Origin: an uncultured Flavobacteriales bacterium
GTDB lineage: Bacteria; Bacteroidota; Bacteroidia; Flavobacteriales_D; Sanyastnellaceae
DNA: 64,000 nucleotides
Assembly: GCA_905478325.1 (NCBI GenBank)
Contig: CAJQIB010000022.1
Coordinates: 1-64,000, forward strand
Reading direction: 5' to 3'
Shown here: in pieces, positions 54,747 to 62,950 of the stretch
Layout: every line of letters starts with the position of its first letter
Position numbering within the stretch: the first letter of the stretch is position 1
Position numbers and translations under genes: made by a program
Notes under the pieces: model-generated
The model's input: only the letters and a program-made list of their open reading frames with translations
Databases searched by the model: none
Told to the model about the DNA's origin: nothing

Positions 54747-55526
54747 ATGCGGAACATCGTAACGGGAAACTGGAAGAGCAACAAATTGTGGGATGATGCT
54801 GAGAAATTGATGGTCGACGTGGCTACAGGTATCCACGCATCTCAGCACACCGACATTTTCGTAGCTCCACCTACACCATATTTAGCAGCCCTGAAGGCAC
54901 AATCTACTGCTTTTGTAGGTCTTGCTGGTCAGCAATGCAGTGCGCACAATGAAGGGGCCTTTACAGGCGAGCATACAGCTTCCATGTTGAAGTCAGCGGG
55001 TGCAAAAGCTGTGCTTATAGGTCATTCAGAGCGAAGAGGTGCTTTTGGTGAGAGTGACGCTGTTGTAGAAGCGAAAGTCCATCATGCATTGGATGCTGGA
55101 TTGCTAGCCATTGTCTGCTGTGGAGAAAATCTTGAAGAACGGGATGCAGGCCAACACTTTGAAAAAGTCTTGACGCAATTATCTCACGCTTTTCAAAACA
55201 TAGATGCGAGCAGAATGCGCCACGTCGTCGTCGCTTATGAGCCCATATGGGCAATAGGAACAGGCCGCACGGCTTCTGCGGCACAAGCTCAAGAGATGCA
55301 TGCTGCGATTCGCCAGCATGTGGTTGGATTGTATGATGCATCCATAGCTGAGTCCATGCGGATTCTTTACGGAGGGAGTTGCAAACCTTCCAATGCCCTC
55401 GAAATATTCATGCAGCCTGATGTCAACGGCGGATTGATCGGTGGCGCATCGTTGAACGCTTCTGATTTCTTAGCCATCGTTGCGGCTTCCAATGAGGCGG
55501 CGTCAAAGGAGCAGCAAGGTGGTTGA
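54747..55526 (+). CDS. tpiA: Triosephosphate isomerase
   Basis: Interconverts dihydroxyacetone phosphate and glyceraldehyde 3-phosphate in glycolysis. The TIM-barrel catalytic residues are Lys10 (NWKSN), His93 (GHSERR) and Glu165 (AYEPIWAIGTG); the phosphate loop LYGGS and GLIGGASL are also present. The length (259) is normal. It is divergent from recQ. Its last 8 nt overlap the start of prmA, whose ribosome-binding site lies inside it, so the two genes are coupled. Confidence 0.97.
   Translation: MRNIVTGNWKSNKLWDDAEKLMVDVATGIHASQHTDIFVAPPTPYLAALKAQSTAFVGLAGQQCSAHNEGAFTGEHTASMLKSAGAKAVLIGHSERRGAFGESDAVVEAKVHHALDAGLLAIVCCGENLEERDAGQHFEKVLTQLSHAFQNIDASRMRHVVVAYEPIWAIGTGRTASAAQAQEMHAAIRQHVVGLYDASIAESMRILYGGSCKPSNALEIFMQPDVNGGLIGGASLNASDFLAIVAASNEAASKEQQGG
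55505..55511 (+). promoter_or_regulatory. Shine-Dalgarno sequence of prmA
   Basis: AAAGGAG is 7 nt before the GTG at 55519. It fixes the prmA start inside the tpiA 3' end rather than at the upstream in-frame ATG at 55480. Confidence 0.65.
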
Positions 55527-56385
55527 TACGCCAACATTCCTTAGGTTGACGTTGACCTGCAAGCCGCTACTCCCGGCACGAGAGATTGCCGTAGCTTGGC
55601 TAGAAACATGTGGATTTGACATGTTTGAAAATAGAGCTGATGGCGTTTTGGCGTATGGAAAGGAATCGGATATTGATCGGGTCGCATGCGCTGATATCCT
55701 AACGGATTTGAAAGAGATTGCCGAGATTGAAACAGCCTTTGAATCCATCGTCTCGGAAAATTGGAACGCTTCATGGGAGGCTGACTACCAAGCCATTGAT
55801 GTCGACGGTTTAGCTCACATGAGGGCGCCGTTTCACCCAGCACCAACTAGCGGGTTGGACTTGGTCATTCAACCTCAAATGTCATTTGGAACCGGACATC
55901 ATGCGACAACGTGGCAAATGCTCCGAAGGCTTTTGGACGAGTCTGTTGCTGATCAGGTCGTTTTGGACATGGGTTGTGGCACAGGGGTATTGGCCATTGC
56001 GAGTCACTTGCTTGGTGCTGAAGCCGTTGTGGCAATCGATATTGATCCGTGGTCTTATGAAAATACCCGCACGAATTACGAGCTCAATGGACTCGATCCT
56101 GCAGCCTCGAACGGTCAGGTTCTTTTAGGAGATGCATCCCTACTCGAACCGTGGGAAGGTCGATTTGACTTGGTTTTAGCCAACATCAATCGCAACGTCC
56201 TCTTGATGGACATGCGGGCATACGACAACGTTCTCAAACCAGGTGGCCGTGTTTTGATGAGTGGATTCTTCCCTTCAGATTTGGACATGTTGAAAGCTCT
56301 TTCGAGCGAGTTGCAATGGAATTGGTTGTCGAGCACTGAGCGCGAGGGGTGGTGCTGTTCGTTGTGGGAAAAGTCACATCCTTGA
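55519..56385 (+). CDS. prmA: Ribosomal protein L11 methyltransferase
   Basis: SAM-dependent trimethylation of ribosomal protein L11. 288 residues with an N-terminal substrate-binding domain (about 1-110) and a Rossmann core with motif VLDMGCGTGVLAIAS and post-motif VAIDIDPWS, then the LVLANINRNVLL segment that carries the catalytic-site Asn. The start is a GTG with a good AAAGGAG 7 nt upstream; the longer ORF start at 55480 would add a poor N-terminus. It overlaps tpiA by 8 nt. Confidence 0.93.
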   Translation: MVDTPTFLRLTLTCKPLLPAREIAVAWLETCGFDMFENRADGVLAYGKESDIDRVACADILTDLKEIAEIETAFESIVSENWNASWEADYQAIDVDGLAHMRAPFHPAPTSGLDLVIQPQMSFGTGHHATTWQMLRRLLDESVADQVVLDMGCGTGVLAIASHLLGAEAVVAIDIDPWSYENTRTNYELNGLDPAASNGQVLLGDASLLEPWEGRFDLVLANINRNVLLMDMRAYDNVLKPGGRVLMSGFFPSDLDMLKALSSELQWNWLSSTEREGWCCSLWEKSHP

Positions 56386-56423: not shown

Positions 56424-59400
56424 ATGCGCTGTTATCAAAAGCCAATCATTTCAACTGCTAAAATGTTTCCGCGTCATGTCGGGGCTTTTGTTCTGCTTGT
56501 GATAGCGCTAATCGTGACGGCCATGGGTACGGCCCAGACATATCAAGCCGATTGCGAGGCGCTAGGAGAGCAATTGCAAAGGGAGTTGGAAGAAACAAGC
56601 GGGAGCGATGCTAAATGGGCTAAGAAGACGCTGTCGCCCCTGCTTTGCGGCCCCGACTTGCGTTCCTCGCAATTGGATACGATTGCACTGTTTTGCAATG
56701 AATTCCAGAAAAAAAGAGTTTCCATGTCAAAGGGAGTATTGAATTACCTCCTCACGATTGAACAGCTTGTGCGTCGCAACGACTCTGAATTGTGGCATAC
56801 GTGGCATAACGTGGTTGATGCGATGCTTCAAAACAAGAAGTGGAAGAAATCCCTGGCGTCATTTTTAAAAATCAGTCCGGGTTTAATTCGAGAACAAATC
56901 CTTTTCGGTGCACCAAGCGGAATCTGGAGACTTGAGGACACAGCGTTTCAATTGAATGTGGATTCAATTCCACAATTGACATTTCAAAACGGCCGTCTAA
57001 TCGGTGAGGCGAAGGGCGATCGAATCGAAGTGTTGCGAACGAGCGGGGTGTGGAATCTAACGAAGGACCGACTCCAGCTGTCAGGAGGCAAATTGCCTTG
57101 GACAGGCACCCGGTTTGATTCTCTTGGGTATTATGCTGAAATGGAGCCGTTTGAATTGAAATTGAAAAGCAGCGGTTTCGTTTGTGATGACGCGGTTTGG
57201 CATTCAGACTTGTTGGAAGCGCCGCTCCAAGGAAGAGTCACAGCTAAACTTCAGAATTTTGAAAACATCGACAGCAAAACGTATCCTCGATTTGCGAGTG
57301 AGGCAGATCGGATTCGATTGGAAGACGTGTTTGAAGGCGTGAATTATGAAGGGGGCATGGCCGTAAAGGGTGCACGTATATCCGGTATCGGAACCCCCGA
57401 TTTCCTTGCTAAAGTTGAAGTATTCAGAGACGATACCATATTTATGACCTTGTCGGCGGCAGAATTCTTATTTACCCCAAAAGGATTTTCAACGGCCCAC
57501 AGTCGGTTGAACTTGTTTTTTAGGAACGATACGATAAGCCACCCTGATGTCAGTGTGCGGCTAGACGACCTGACTGGTGCTTACCGGGTAATGCGTCAAA
57601 CTGAGGGGCTAGGTCAGCAGTCATTTGAAGACCGTTACCATACGATTTCTTGGGATGTCGATGGTTTTGCATGGAGTCGAAATTCAACAACAATTTCCAT
57701 TGGCTCCGTGTTTGGGGGAAGCTCTAAACTCGGTGTTTTCGAAAGTAGCACTTTCTTTAAAAGAGAGTCATTTTTGAAGATGAAGGGGATTGGGGATGTA
57801 CATCCCCTGACACGCGTGAAAAATTTCGTGAAAGAAAACGGACGAAGTGAATTCACTAGCGAAGATTACGCCCGATTCATTCGGATGAGTGAGGTACAGG
57901 CCCGCGTAGAGTTGTTGAACCTAGCCAATGCACGGTATGTTTTCTTCGATCCGGAAACTCGGTGGTGTGAGGTCCAGCCCAAAATGCTGTCAAGCATGCG
58001 GAGTTTCAGTGGTCGACAAGATTATGACGTGCTGAAATGGGAGTCAATGCCACAGTCTGGCGGCAATGCTGAATTCAGTTTATTGAATGGCTTCATGTCC
58101 ATTTATGGTGTTGATTATGTGTTTTTAAGTGATTCACAAAACGTGAAGATCTTTCCGAGAAATGGGGAAGTCATCTTGTCTGAAAATCGAGATTTCACAT
58201 TTGATGGAAGGCTTAAGGCTGGAAACCTCGACATGCAGGGTGAGGGCTTTTCCTTTGATTATGAATCGTTCTCCATTCAACTGGACCAAATTGAGGGCAT
58301 CAGCATGTTTGTCAATGATCCGGACAACGTGGATGGAAGAGGAAATGCGCGGAAGAAAAGAGTCCGCAGCACATTGGAAAACGTCTCTGGCTCACTCGCG
58401 ATAGACCATCCCAACAATCGATCAGGCATTTGGTCCGCTAATCACCCCGAATTCCCCGTATTCACGAGCATAGACCAGAGTTATGTTTATTTCGATCAAC
58501 CCGTGCTATTTGAAGGTGCCTATGAGCGTGATCGGTTTTACTATGCCGTGGATCCTTTTGTGCTCAACGGGCTGGATGATTTGACCGCTGAAACACTTGT
58601 ATTCCAAGGGACGTTTGTTTCAGCCGGGATCTTGGAGGATCTCAATGAACCTCTTCGCGTGATGAATGACCTTCATTTGGGACTCAAAACCAATACGCCA
58701 GCGGAAGGTCAAACGGTGTATGAAAGTGGAGCCCGTTTTTCCAATGGAGTTACCTTGGATGGGGGAGGGCTTCAAGGCGCAGGAAGAATCGACTTTTTGA
58801 CTGCTGAAATTCACAGCGATAACCTGGTTTTCCTGCCTGACTCAACCATGGGTGAGGCCCAGTTGGTTATCAATCGCAATAGCTCGGCATCCAATGTGCC
58901 ACGCATAGACAACGCCGACGGCTACATTGTCTTTCGTCCCAAAGCAGAACAACTCGAAATGAGGTCTGGAAAGGAACCTCTAAAGCTGTTTGGAGAACAT
59001 GTGTTTCTTGAGGGCTATTCAACGCTTTCGAACGTAGGATTGACTGGAAGGGGTGAGATTAACTTTTCCGAAGCGTCTTTGAATTCGAACGACTTTGTCT
59101 TTGAAGAACGAGACATTTTTTCTGATTCTGCGGCATTTAAGGTGGCCGGTCGGCCAGGGGGGATTGCAGCCTTTCAAACAAATGATGTTCGTTGTCAAGT
59201 CGATTTTGACGAGCGGGTAGGTGACTTCATGCCAAATTCAGGCGAGACCAAAATCGAATTGCCGATCCAGCAGTATATCTGCTATATGGATCGTTTTAGG
59301 TGGTTTATGGACAAGGACGAAGTTGATTTAATTTCTGATCGCCAAACAGAGGATCTTCCATTTGACTTTAGTGAAGATCGAGCCATATCCAATTTTGTGT

Positions 59401-60908
59401 CAGTCCACCCGGAGCAAGATTCTTTGCATTTCTTGAGCATCCGCGCAACGTACCGAATTCAAGACGATTTCTTGCGTTGTCAAGAGGTTTCAGAATTGGC
59501 TTTGGCTGATGCACGGATCTATCCTGACAGCCAATTGGTCACCATTCGAAAGGGAGCGAAAATGGATCAATTGAGGCGCGCTCGCATCGTCGCGAATGAT
59601 GTAACGCGCCAACATTACATTGATGACGCCAATCTCAATGTCAACGGAAGGCTGTCTTTTGAAGGGGATGGAGCCTACCGTTATCGAGAAGTCACTGGGG
59701 ATACTTCGTATATTTTCATGGACGACATCTTCGTTGACGAATCCTTTCAAACCGTTGCTACAGGGAAGGTTATGGCCCGTGATGGATTTGCATTAAGTCC
59801 GGCATTTGGTTTTGCCGGTGCTGTTCGAATGAATTCTTCAGAGCCTAATTTGTGGTTTGAAGGTGGAGTCAAATTATTGAAGCCTTGTGATCAGTTTATC
59901 GCTACGTGGATTCATTTTGAATCCTTTTTGAACCCTCTTGAATTAGCGATTCCACTTGAGGAAAACGTAGTCGATCAGGACGGTGACCTGTTATCCTTTG
60001 GTCTAATGGCTTCTTCCCGTGCCCCGTTTTCAATTTATTCAGGCTTTCTTGATCCGATGGGAGATGAAACAGACATGATGCTAATGCCATTGGAAGGCTC
60101 CCTACGTTTCAGCGATGGACACTATATCATATCATCACTTGAGAAATTTGAAGATCCTTCAGCAAGCGGCAACTTAATAGACTTGGATGCCATACGATGC
60201 AACTTAACCGGCAACGGAGCCGTGTCTCTCCCTTTGGACTTCAACTTGGTCACGCATGATTTTTATGGTGATTTCTACCAAGATGGATCAGGCAAACATC
60301 ACATAAAGGGAACATTCTTATTGGACTTTCACTTCAAAGATGATCTCTTTGAAAGGATGTCAACACAAATACAATCGTGGGTATCCTCGGAGCCATTGGT
60401 GTTGAATGAGGCCAATTACGAGCATGCTCTTGTTGAATGGCTAGGTGAGGAGAAGAGCTCGAAGCTGTTAAATGAACTTGCCATGACAGGCCAAATTAAA
60501 AACGTTCCTAAGAAGCTCCAAAACAGTTTGGTCTTTAGTGAAATCGATTTGGTTTGGGATGAGGATGATGAGATGTTTGTTTCGAAGGGAAATTTGGGAC
60601 TCGTCACAATGGGAGAAAGCCTTGTTTTTCAGGAGTTGCCTGGTAAAATTGAATTGATTCGAAGTCGAAGTGGTGATGCCTTTCGGGTATACTTGCACGG
60701 AGATGAACAAAACTGGTACTACCTCGAATACAAGTTGGGGAAGCTCAATGTGTCTTCTCCTGACTTGACCTTATTGACCATGATTGCAGAAATCAAAAAA
60801 GACAAGAAGGAAGTTAAAGGAGATAATGGCTCTCGATATTTGTATCAATACTTGCGAAATACCATTCGACGTGATGACTTGGTAGACGAATACCGTGATT
60901 TCGATTGA
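56424..60908 (+). CDS. Large exported protein of unknown function, 1494 aa
   Basis: The largest gene in the window. It starts with a signal peptide (hydrophobic run about 20-35, cleavage near TAQ); an in-frame ATG at 56463 would give a shorter and equally good one, but a -7 element is 4 nt before 56424. Residues about 40-140 are helical; the rest is beta-rich with repeated short Gly/Asp/Phe strands. Two copies about 90 residues apart of the pattern LxGxGxIxF-A-x-SxxxVF (near 783 and 873), and an NGRLSFEGDG segment later, recall outer-membrane-associated repeats. There is no T9SS sorting domain, lipobox or catalytic motif. I do not recognise the family. Downstream, fadH begins 2 nt after its stop. 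Confidence 0.7.
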   Translation: MRCYQKPIISTAKMFPRHVGAFVLLVIALIVTAMGTAQTYQADCEALGEQLQRELEETSGSDAKWAKKTLSPLLCGPDLRSSQLDTIALFCNEFQKKRVSMSKGVLNYLLTIEQLVRRNDSELWHTWHNVVDAMLQNKKWKKSLASFLKISPGLIREQILFGAPSGIWRLEDTAFQLNVDSIPQLTFQNGRLIGEAKGDRIEVLRTSGVWNLTKDRLQLSGGKLPWTGTRFDSLGYYAEMEPFELKLKSSGFVCDDAVWHSDLLEAPLQGRVTAKLQNFENIDSKTYPRFASEADRIRLEDVFEGVNYEGGMAVKGARISGIGTPDFLAKVEVFRDDTIFMTLSAAEFLFTPKGFSTAHSRLNLFFRNDTISHPDVSVRLDDLTGAYRVMRQTEGLGQQSFEDRYHTISWDVDGFAWSRNSTTISIGSVFGGSSKLGVFESSTFFKRESFLKMKGIGDVHPLTRVKNFVKENGRSEFTSEDYARFIRMSEVQARVELLNLANARYVFFDPETRWCEVQPKMLSSMRSFSGRQDYDVLKWESMPQSGGNAEFSLLNGFMSIYGVDYVFLSDSQNVKIFPRNGEVILSENRDFTFDGRLKAGNLDMQGEGFSFDYESFSIQLDQIEGISMFVNDPDNVDGRGNARKKRVRSTLENVSGSLAIDHPNNRSGIWSANHPEFPVFTSIDQSYVYFDQPVLFEGAYERDRFYYAVDPFVLNGLDDLTAETLVFQGTFVSAGILEDLNEPLRVMNDLHLGLKTNTPAEGQTVYESGARFSNGVTLDGGGLQGAGRIDFLTAEIHSDNLVFLPDSTMGEAQLVINRNSSASNVPRIDNADGYIVFRPKAEQLEMRSGKEPLKLFGEHVFLEGYSTLSNVGLTGRGEINFSEASLNSNDFVFEERDIFSDSAAFKVAGRPGGIAAFQTNDVRCQVDFDERVGDFMPNSGETKIELPIQQYICYMDRFRWFMDKDEVDLISDRQTEDLPFDFSEDRAISNFVSVHPEQDSLHFLSIRATYRIQDDFLRCQEVSELALADARIYPDSQLVTIRKGAKMDQLRRARIVANDVTRQHYIDDANLNVNGRLSFEGDGAYRYREVTGDTSYIFMDDIFVDESFQTVATGKVMARDGFALSPAFGFAGAVRMNSSEPNLWFEGGVKLLKPCDQFIATWIHFESFLNPLELAIPLEENVVDQDGDLLSFGLMASSRAPFSIYSGFLDPMGDETDMMLMPLEGSLRFSDGHYIISSLEKFEDPSASGNLIDLDAIRCNLTGNGAVSLPLDFNLVTHDFYGDFYQDGSGKHHIKGTFLLDFHFKDDLFERMSTQIQSWVSSEPLVLNEANYEHALVEWLGEEKSSKLLNELAMTGQIKNVPKKLQNSLVFSEIDLVWDEDDEMFVSKGNLGLVTMGESLVFQELPGKIELIRSRSGDAFRVYLHGDEQNWYYLEYKLGKLNVSSPDLTLLTMIAEIKKDKKEVKGDNGSRYLYQYLRNTIRRDDLVDEYRDFD

Positions 60909-60910
60909 GC

Positions 60911-62950
60911 ATGAAAAACGAACATTACCCCATTCTATTTGACCCCATCCGCGTGGGACACTTGACGCTTCCGAATCGGGTCATTATGGGAAGCATGCAC
61001 ACCGGCTTAGAGGAGTCTAAAGGGGGCATGGAAGCTTTGGCAAGATTTTATGCAGAACGCGCTGCTGGCGGCGCGGCGCTTATTGTCACAGGAGGCATCT
61101 CACCGAATAGAGAGGGGGTGCTGGGACCTGGAGGTGCGCGCATGCAAAGAAAAAAGCATGCCCAAGAGCACCGCGTGATTGCGGATGCAGTGCACGGTGA
61201 AGGAGGTCGGATATGCATGCAAATTTTGCACGGTGGTCGATACAGTTACCATCCTTTCAATGTAGCTCCTGCTGCGAAAAAGGCACCAATCAATCGATTC
61301 AAACCGCGCAAACTATCCAATAGAGGCGTCCTAAGAACCATACGTGCATTTGTACGTTCTGCTAAACTGGCCCAATCTGCCGGTTATGATGGAGTGGAAG
61401 TGATGGGGTCAGAAGGGTACTTGATCAATCAGTTTTTAGTTGAAGCCACCAATAATCGCAACGATCAGTGGGGTGGCACCTACAAAAACCGCATGCGATT
61501 TCCCGTTGAAATCGTGCGTCAAATCCGCGAGGCTTGCGGACCTGATTTTGTCATCATGTACCGGTTGAGTATGTTGGACTTGGTGCCCAATGGAAGTTCT
61601 TGGGAAGAAGTAATCCAATTGGCGAAAGCCATTGAAACGGCTGGGGCCAATGTGATCAATACCGGCATTGGTTGGCATGAGGCGCGGATTCCTACCATCG
61701 CAACGTTGGTGCCTAGAGGTCATTTTTCTTTCGTCACAGAAAAGTTAAAAGGATCTGTAAATGTGCCTCTTGTCGCAACGAATCGATTCAACAATCCGGA
61801 AACATGTGAAATGGCTCTGCGCGAAGGTGTGGCTGATTTGATCTCTATGGCGCGACCATTTTTAGCAGACCCTGAAATCGTAAACAAATCTGAGACCAAT
61901 CGGTCTGATGAGATCAACACCTGTATCGGGTGCAACCAGGCATGTTTGGATCACATTTTTAAACGTAAGGTTGCCACGTGTCTTGTAAATCCTCGAGCCA
62001 GTCATGAAGGAACATGGCCTTTACTAGCGCGTGCCTTGAATCCGCGAAGGGTGGCTGTCGTCGGGTCCGGTCCTGCTGGGCTCAGTGCCTCCATAGAAGC
62101 TGCTCGGTTGGGGCATCACGTGGAGCTCTTTGAAGAGTCCGAAACGATCGGAGGGCAATTTAATTTGGCCAAAACGATCCCAGGAAAAGAAGAGTTTCAT
62201 GAAACTCTTCGCTACTTCCAGAGTATGCTTGCGAAGCTGCAGGTAAAGGTTCATTTGAATCGCCATGTAACTGCTGACGACTTGTCTTCTCAATTTGATT
62301 CAGTCATCGTAGCGACCGGTATTCGTCCGCGTTCTTGGAGTATTCCCGGTTTAAAAGGGCAGGGGGTTAGTGTAGGGTACACGGCCGTACTCAAAAGTGA
62401 AATTACCGTTGGCACTCGCGTGGCGATCATTGGTGCGGGTGGTATTGGGTTTGATGTCGCCGACTACCTCACCCACGACGGAGACGCCAGTTTTTCAAAT
62501 GCTTGGGGCATTGACCAAGACCTTTCGTCAAGAGGAGGATTGGTCAAACCGGGATCACGAACATCAAAGCGGGAGGTCCACCTCTTTCAACGATCGAGCG
62601 GTAAAGTGGGGGCTCGTCTAGGGAAAACAACGGGATGGATTCATCGCAAAACGTTAAAGGATAGAGGAGTTCAAACCCATTCAGACGTGGAGTACCAAAA
62701 ATGGGACGATGGCTGGCTGTATTTTACTGAGGGCGATATCCCACAAAAAATCAAGATCGACCATGTTGTTGTTTGCGTCGGTCAGGAGGAACGAAACGAA
62801 TTGGTTGAAGCGATTCGAGAAACGGGAATGGACGTTCACACTGTTGGAGGCGCGCTCAATTCAAGAGGGCTTGATGCTCAACGGGCGATCCGAGAGGGGC
62901 TAGAAGCCGCGTATAACGTGTCTCCTTGGAATATTAGTCAGGAGAGCTAA
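60911..62950 (+). CDS. fadH: NADPH-dependent 2,4-dienoyl-CoA reductase
   Basis: FMN, 4Fe-4S and FAD flavoprotein that reduces 2,4-dienoyl-CoA during oxidation of polyunsaturated fatty acids. The Old Yellow Enzyme barrel occupies about 1-330. The iron-sulfur cysteines are Cys338, Cys341, Cys345 and Cys357. The C-terminal part has two nucleotide motifs, VAVVGSGPAGLSA and VAIIGAGGIGFDVA. The length (about 680) fits the E. coli enzyme. The ATG at 60911 is preferred to a TTG at 60905, which overlaps the previous stop. Its 3' end overlaps the convergent plsC by 17 nt. Confidence 0.92.
   Translation: MKNEHYPILFDPIRVGHLTLPNRVIMGSMHTGLEESKGGMEALARFYAERAAGGAALIVTGGISPNREGVLGPGGARMQRKKHAQEHRVIADAVHGEGGRICMQILHGGRYSYHPFNVAPAAKKAPINRFKPRKLSNRGVLRTIRAFVRSAKLAQSAGYDGVEVMGSEGYLINQFLVEATNNRNDQWGGTYKNRMRFPVEIVRQIREACGPDFVIMYRLSMLDLVPNGSSWEEVIQLAKAIETAGANVINTGIGWHEARIPTIATLVPRGHFSFVTEKLKGSVNVPLVATNRFNNPETCEMALREGVADLISMARPFLADPEIVNKSETNRSDEINTCIGCNQACLDHIFKRKVATCLVNPRASHEGTWPLLARALNPRRVAVVGSGPAGLSASIEAARLGHHVELFEESETIGGQFNLAKTIPGKEEFHETLRYFQSMLAKLQVKVHLNRHVTADDLSSQFDSVIVATGIRPRSWSIPGLKGQGVSVGYTAVLKSEITVGTRVAIIGAGGIGFDVADYLTHDGDASFSNAWGIDQDLSSRGGLVKPGSRTSKREVHLFQRSSGKVGARLGKTTGWIHRKTLKDRGVQTHSDVEYQKWDDGWLYFTEGDIPQKIKIDHVVVCVGQEERNELVEAIRETGMDVHTVGGALNSRGLDAQRAIREGLEAAYNVSPWNISQES

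Follow-up and report, generated by a model that had tools for sequence, protein, structure and literature searches.

A widely conserved family of long exported proteins in Bacteroidia with an LptA-like predicted fold and a possible role as a periplasmic lipid bridge

Two groups of periplasmic proteins are the closest described points of comparison for the gene considered here. In the Lpt bridge, beta-jellyroll modules are supplied by separate proteins (LptA/LptH, LptC and the N-terminal part of LptD), and in Bacteroidota the Lpt-type families OstA_2 (PF13100) and LptD_2 (PF19838) occur in the same genomes as the family described below. For the AsmA-like proteins, PMC12045153 describes a common beta-taco fold in the periplasm and, in Escherichia coli, anchoring in the inner membrane. 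The same paper lists another five AsmA-like proteins from Flavobacterium johnsoniae, presents TamB/TamL as the studied phospholipid-transport candidate in Bacteroidota, and records TamB2/TamL2, of unknown function, in 20 of 30 species of the phylum. Even for E. coli, the route by which phospholipids reach the outer membrane had until recently remained hard to establish (PMC12977461). Here, we analyzed a 64,000-nt stretch of DNA from an uncultured Flavobacteriales bacterium (GCA_905478325.1, contig CAJQIB010000022.1, positions 1 to 64,000; hereafter the window), in which an intact open reading frame (ORF) of 1,494 codons (56424..60908, + strand, as are all features given below) encodes a 1,494-residue exported protein. 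With moderate confidence, we regard this protein as an LptA-like conduit that is soluble in the periplasm, consists of a single chain and most likely carries glycerophospholipids.

The predicted structure provides the first line of evidence. AlphaFold2 was run on two overlapping halves, residues 1-830 and 640-1494, with alignments of 74 and 75 sequences made up of the window protein and the homologues covering each half (73 of 76 in A2 and 74 of 77 in A3). The N-half model has a mean predicted local distance difference test score (pLDDT) of 90.3 and a predicted TM-score (pTM) of 0.74, the C-half model has values of 89.3 and 0.66, and a beta-rich body is visible in both. In these half models, a long run of strands reaches from residue 158 to about 1305 and is interrupted by a winged helix. 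VIA-align was applied to Foldseek's top 1000 chains, and Lpt proteins head the 50 best rows shown for each half. For the N-half, the first 10 rows are all LptD, LptC or LptH (Z 9.2-11.8), led by LptD 8h1r_A (Z 11.8, 3.0 Å over 135 residues), with matches to LptC 3my2 (Z 9.3, residues 167-301), LptC 4b54 (Z 9.8, 304-441) and LptH 4uu4 (Z 9.7, 303-443). For the C-half, the first 21 rows are all LptC, LptA, LptH or LptD (Z 7.2-10.3); LptC 6mit_C scores best (Z 10.3, 2.7 Å over 131 residues), LptA 2r1a_C reaches Z 10.1 over residues 909-1059 and LptD 8h1r_D Z 9.5, and the first non-Lpt row is a TCP10 domain at Z 6.6. Entry 4q35, titled simply as a membrane protein, is one that we take to be LptD. 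Among rows with a root-mean-square deviation (rmsd) below 5 Å, the likeness to Lpt jellyroll modules spans Z 7.2-11.8, 2.3-4.6 Å and 118-158 residues, and four mutually non-overlapping windows (167-301, 304-441, 742-894 and 897-1055) each fit the Lpt jellyroll at 2.7-3.6 Å. Foldseek itself returned the LptA/LptH chains 4uu4, 2r19_A, 2r19_B and 2r1a_C for the C-half with prob 0.94-1.00, TMt 0.48-0.60 and E 0.14-0.54. On these models, an Lpt-like fold is very probable.

The protein can be divided into an N-terminal signal and five predicted regions. A hydrophobic segment at about residues 19-35 (by eye) is followed by ...TAQ, in which Q38 is nearly invariant (at least 90% conserved in the alignment of 74 sequences); the A-Q pair conserved at this place suggests that the N-terminal signal is removed, and the predicted cleavable signal peptide would cover residues 1-37, ending ...GTA|Q38 (56424..56534). 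A helical domain follows at residues 40-157 (56541..56894, from AlphaFold2 secondary structure). The first part of the beta-jellyroll body, residues 158-444 (56895..57755, from VIA-align), holds the first two Lpt-like windows, and the second part, residues 535-1305 (58026..60338, from AlphaFold2 and VIA-align), holds the other two. Between them lies the winged-helix insert at residues 445-534 (57756..58025), assigned by VIA-align matches in the N-half to Rio2, IclR and MarR-type proteins (Z up to 8.8) and by a profile match to the RecQ family. The presence of a winged helix, usually a DNA-binding fold, midway in an exported beta protein is an observation in its own right. The C-terminal domain, residues 1306-1494 (60339..60905), consists of helices, a small beta sheet and terminal helices in the AlphaFold2 model, and no specific fold match was established for it.

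In the proposed mechanism, the protein would be exported to the periplasm and remain there, soluble, as a single-chain bridge. Residues 158 to about 1305 would form serial LptA/LptC-like beta-jellyrolls with the winged-helix insert between them, the groove of which would allow the acyl chains of lipids to slide from one membrane of the envelope to the other. By residue count the chain would be long enough to span the periplasm; the approximately 1,060 residues of the beta body, at approximately 130 per LptA module, amount to about eight LptA equivalents, which is arithmetic and not a measurement. The helical N-terminal and mixed C-terminal domains may dock onto partners at either end. A conduit role, as well as a hydrophobic groove, the cargo, docking and direction, is what we infer for this protein, and of these a function as a lipid conduit is fairly likely. 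Glycerophospholipid would be the likeliest cargo because plsY directly follows the family gene in many relatives, and phospholipid is put forward tentatively, at nearly even chances.

The family to which the protein belongs is colinear with it along its whole length, with mostly 28-32% identity in other families of the order and 23-24% in the most distant members. Among 60 relatives, 51 carry a member, as do 128 of the 149 genomes sampled across the class. Of the 29 genomes that initially scored as family-negative, 28 also had no match (E up to 10) to a profile including divergent members; in the remaining one (G184), the match was short (E 0.019) and confined to part of the winged helix. One genome (G201) was scored as negative by inference, as it appears in the LptD_2, OstA_2 and TamB results and in neither family listing. 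Two deviating loci were seen: tandem family matches with frames of 1,552 and 1,569 aa (G084:C42:308256-316768), which suggest duplication in one lineage, and a gene split over three frames of 546, 401 and 622 aa (G139:C1:387621-392119), either by decay or by an assembly error. Neither the family nor its gene order is described in the titles and abstract openings of the open-licence papers searched.

By sequence, the family could not be joined to any named one. Pfam gave only chance matches (E 0.02-0.1) for the window protein and 18 family members, with no OstA, LptC, LptD, TamB or AsmA match; the match of the window protein itself (E 0.02) is below the cut-off. NCBIfam and PHROGs gave zero matches for the window protein, and a search of the PDB by sequence and by profile gave nothing significant for the family (one match, E 0.91). 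Kinship to OstA, LptD and TamB was tested by hhalign with 20-sequence profiles each, and kinship to LptC by Pfam only. The family profile scored 26.7 against OstA (P 0.07), 21.2 against LptD (P 0.37) and 27.3 against TamB (P 0.14), none of which is significant. As controls, 17 of 18 unrelated neighbor profiles scored at most 26.9, the maximum belonging to a 2,119-column profile and the shorter ones reaching at most 22.6. The OstA score is slightly above size-matched controls, yet not significant, and the TamB score is no better than that of the best unrelated control of similar size (26.9). The 18th control, RecQ by Pfam, scored 40.5 (P 0.002) at residues 460-516, which is in line with the winged-helix insert, and the part matched there is presumably the RecQ winged helix. 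A sequence-only reading made before this analysis had found the protein reminiscent of LptA/OstA- or AsmA/TamB-like repeating strands; the Lpt likeness holds for the fold, as the top 10 and top 21 VIA-align rows indicate, and no membership by sequence in the OstA, LptD, AsmA or TamB families was detected. Its statement that the family could not be named is borne out, with no confident match in Pfam, NCBIfam or the PDB sequences. The outcomes it had set beforehand as refuting, namely a compact enzyme fold or a confident match to a known family, did not occur in AlphaFold2, Pfam, NCBIfam or the PDB. An identity as type IX secretion system (T9SS) cargo, lipoprotein or enzyme was rejected, as no such family match and no compact enzyme core in the models were found.

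Several differences from the known systems accompany these likenesses. Like the Lpt bridge proteins, the window protein is apparently exported; unlike them, it is one chain of about eight module lengths, carries a winged-helix insert and a helical N-terminal domain, has no detected sequence similarity to Lpt, and coexists with OstA and LptD proteins of its own genome. It resembles TamB, YhdP and YdbH in being a long periplasmic beta protein of similar length, and differs from them in lacking a TamB or AsmA Pfam match, with an hhalign score at the level of the controls. A further difference is that AsmA-like proteins are held by an inner-membrane anchor (PMC12045153), whereas the window protein apparently has a cleaved signal peptide.

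An alternative possibility is that the protein is an accessory bridge for lipopolysaccharide (LPS) or another outer-leaflet glycolipid, one that works with LptB2FG and LptD and either supplements or replaces the OstA protein. The nearest folds by VIA-align (LptA, LptC, LptH and LptD) speak for this, as do the presence of LptF/LptG in 34 of 34 genomes tested and the weak OstA_2 match of the window's own genome. That genome (G000) encodes LptD_2 on contig C29, OstA_2 on C8 (E 4.2e-10), TamB on C42, AsmA on C28 and two LptF/LptG genes, all separate from the gene described here and, in the case of OstA_2 and LptD_2, with no significant profile similarity to the family; thus, the window protein is an addition to these genes and not the sole LptA or LptD. 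For the same reason, substitution of the family for the canonical LPS bridge was rejected, since separate LptD_2 and OstA_2 genes are kept. An extra LptFG pair feeding the protein was also rejected, because the 34 genomes have two such proteins each and surplus rows in six of them are second frame pieces. Across the class, LptD_2 occurs in 141 of 149 genomes and OstA_2 in 142 of 149, in family-positive and family-negative genomes alike, so the LPS bridge seems complete without the window protein; moreover, OstA and LptD profiles match 0 of 815 neighbor ORFs. An LPS role is accordingly held to be unlikely.

The surroundings of the family gene in many relatives point to phospholipid. Of 282 relatives, 80 were kept, with titles that are mostly those of uncultured Flavobacteriales and include one named isolate, Cryomorpha ignava (L104). 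PlsY is the first acyltransferase of phospholipid synthesis. A gene for a protein with PD40 and SPOR domains (PD40/SPOR) was used as a landmark; matches to its profile occur in 116 of the 149 class genomes, an upper bound as smaller PD40 proteins are also matched, and 74 of the 116 (the strong rows, plus the window's own genome) were entered into the comparison. In 29 of these 74 genomes, from 12 families, the PD40/SPOR gene lies at most 1.4 kb downstream of the family gene on the same strand. The gap is long enough for plsY in 24 of the 29, and plsY was found by hidden Markov model (E at most 8.4e-66) in all 20 of the gaps fetched (four were not), which represent 10 families. In all 11 loci in which the distance was measured, a potential plsY start codon (ATG) is found no more than 4 nt from the family-gene stop. 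That so many families have retained this order speaks for a functional link with phospholipid synthesis. In relatives (L069, L102-L104 and others), a large PD40/SPOR protein of approximately 2,000 aa is often encoded one or two genes downstream; in L103, the PD40 and SPOR domains were assigned by Pfam, and a TPR-like start and a signal peptide by eye. Encoded next to the putative conduit, the PD40/SPOR protein could tie it to peptidoglycan.

A second alternative is a scaffold resembling the translocation and assembly module (TAM), which would serve outer-membrane protein or glycan assembly or export and would not be a lipid conduit. TamB matches at E up to 1e-20 were counted as proteins, six genomes having none, and two or more were present in 13 of 21 family-negative class genomes and in 13 of 128 family-positive ones (Fisher P 6e-7). 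By taxonomic family, with four families of mixed status set aside, the corresponding counts are 6 of 7 families lacking the protein and 9 of 52 carrying it (P 7e-4). The distribution of the family is thus complementary to that of a second TamB, which is compatible with a TAM-like function, as is the position of TamB as the next gene downstream, in convergent orientation, in two loci (L063 and L073), where two bridge-like genes adjoin. TamB is itself discussed as an assembly factor and also as a possible lipid conduit (PMC11014939). The plsY linkage points toward lipids, and we regard a TAM-like scaffold as quite unlikely. A structural periplasmic strut or peptidoglycan-associated protein, whose likeness to Lpt would lie in a long antiparallel beta-sheet only, is the least probable of the alternatives; the weak whole-model Foldseek results, the matches to teneurin, ApoB and OspA sheets and the linkage to a SPOR-domain protein are set against four separate Lpt-like windows and, in the C-half list, OspA rows at Z of at most 5.0 vs. 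7.2-10.3 for Lpt rows with rmsd below 5 Å.

The fold resemblance, the family, the signal segment and the gene order come directly from the computation, and a number of results weigh against building a phospholipid conduit on them. Whole-model Foldseek is weak: the best N-half row has E 2.5e-3 and prob 0.25, the top C-half row is a teneurin-like protein (3.6e-5) with LptD second (4.5e-5), and TMq is at most 0.16 among the rows shown. Several VIA-align rows have an rmsd of 11-37 Å and were given no weight. TamB and VPS13 chains are absent from the 50 VIA-align rows shown, which derive from Foldseek's top 1000 only, and this counts as no evidence. Sequence kinship to the Lpt or AsmA-like families was not detected by Pfam or hhalign, and the TamB trend tests ignore phylogeny at both genome and family level. 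The best PD40/SPOR match is on another contig in 41 of the 74 genomes and further off on the same contig in four, and for five of the 29 linked genomes the intervening 111-252 nt leave no room for plsY. PF02660 finds no plsY in the window's own genome, which is rated 98.87% complete, and the PD40/SPOR homologue there lies 8.5 kb beyond the gene and beyond the window (1,152 aa, contig C22 69446-72904, L204:6447-9905), with a sub-threshold TPR only by Pfam and SPOR-like ends by eye; the operon argument therefore rests on the relatives. No membrane anchor or outer-membrane partner of the protein was identified. The family is present in only 10 of 198 genomes of a draw across the phylum, and so is not generally required; the rows listed besides the window's own genome all have a completeness of 100% and a contamination of 0 (168 rows are unlisted), and the draw is read as dominated by a few well-sampled families without the gene.

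The remaining features concern the immediate locus and the letters of the gene. Upstream lie tpiA (54747..55526) and prmA (55480..56385, by Pfam; the ORF is as listed and its true start may lie later), and the gene starts at 56424, 38 nt past the prmA stop. Its own stop codon TGA occupies 60906-60908 and the next ATG is at 60911, a 2-nt gap read directly from the letters, where a fadH-like 2,4-dienoyl-CoA reductase (60911..62950; Oxidored_FMN and Pyr_redox_2) begins. Immediate neighbors were counted in 81 loci, of which one has no neighbor ORF, leaving 80. The order tpiA-prmA-gene occurs in 35 of these 80; prmA lies directly upstream in 42 of the 76 loci with an upstream gene; and of the 74 loci having a downstream gene, it is fadH in 26 and PD40/SPOR in 14, with plsY followed by PD40/SPOR in 11. 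Anywhere in the 81 loci, tpiA is found in 39, prmA in 43, fadH in 33 and PD40/SPOR in 32. Of the neighborhood, whose conservation the sequence-only reading had asked to be checked, fadH was rejected as a general partner on these counts, and plsY in other relatives is the more telling neighbor.

What that reading had described in the sequence was recovered: the intact 1,494-residue ORF, the beta-rich body, fadH 2 nt downstream, and export by a signal peptide, for which the hydrophobic segment and conserved Q38 speak. The lack of a lipobox (none seen by eye in the protein) and of a T9SS tail (none reported by Pfam) also agreed. The repeated motif was searched as LxGxG-x-[IVL]-x-F-(6-14)-F, a pattern written to match the earlier description, and two copies were found at residues 783-803 (58770..58832) and 873-893 (59040..59102), spaced by exactly 90 residues as against the "about 90" reported; two copies were reached in 1 of 20,000 shuffles of the protein with this fitted pattern. 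A third, weaker copy at residues 1261-1284 (60204..60275) appears with a looser pattern only. A profile self-comparison matches residues 835-1306 to 744-1157 (E 1.1e-4) and residues 657-910 to 771-1015 (E 4.7e-4), and the copies at 783 and 873 sit within this weak longer-range internal repetition. The reading had further proposed an envelope-spanning lipid or glycan transport protein, and envelope-spanning lipid transport is likewise what we infer.

Ultimately, a large, widely conserved and unnamed family with an LptA-like fold, encoded next to plsY in many relatives, provides a concrete gene for study in this phylum, and it makes it possible to test whether the same fold has been turned into a lipid bridge on more than one occasion. 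It is possible, if doubtful, that the family represents a third kind of lipid bridge across the envelope, distinct from both the Lpt and the AsmA-like kinds, in which a soluble single-chain array of LptA-like jellyrolls moves newly made phospholipid through the periplasm. If this is true, such a bridge would operate in many environmental Bacteroidia, with a genetic link to PlsY and with the PD40/SPOR protein holding it at the peptidoglycan, and would take on the task for which other lineages use a second TamB.

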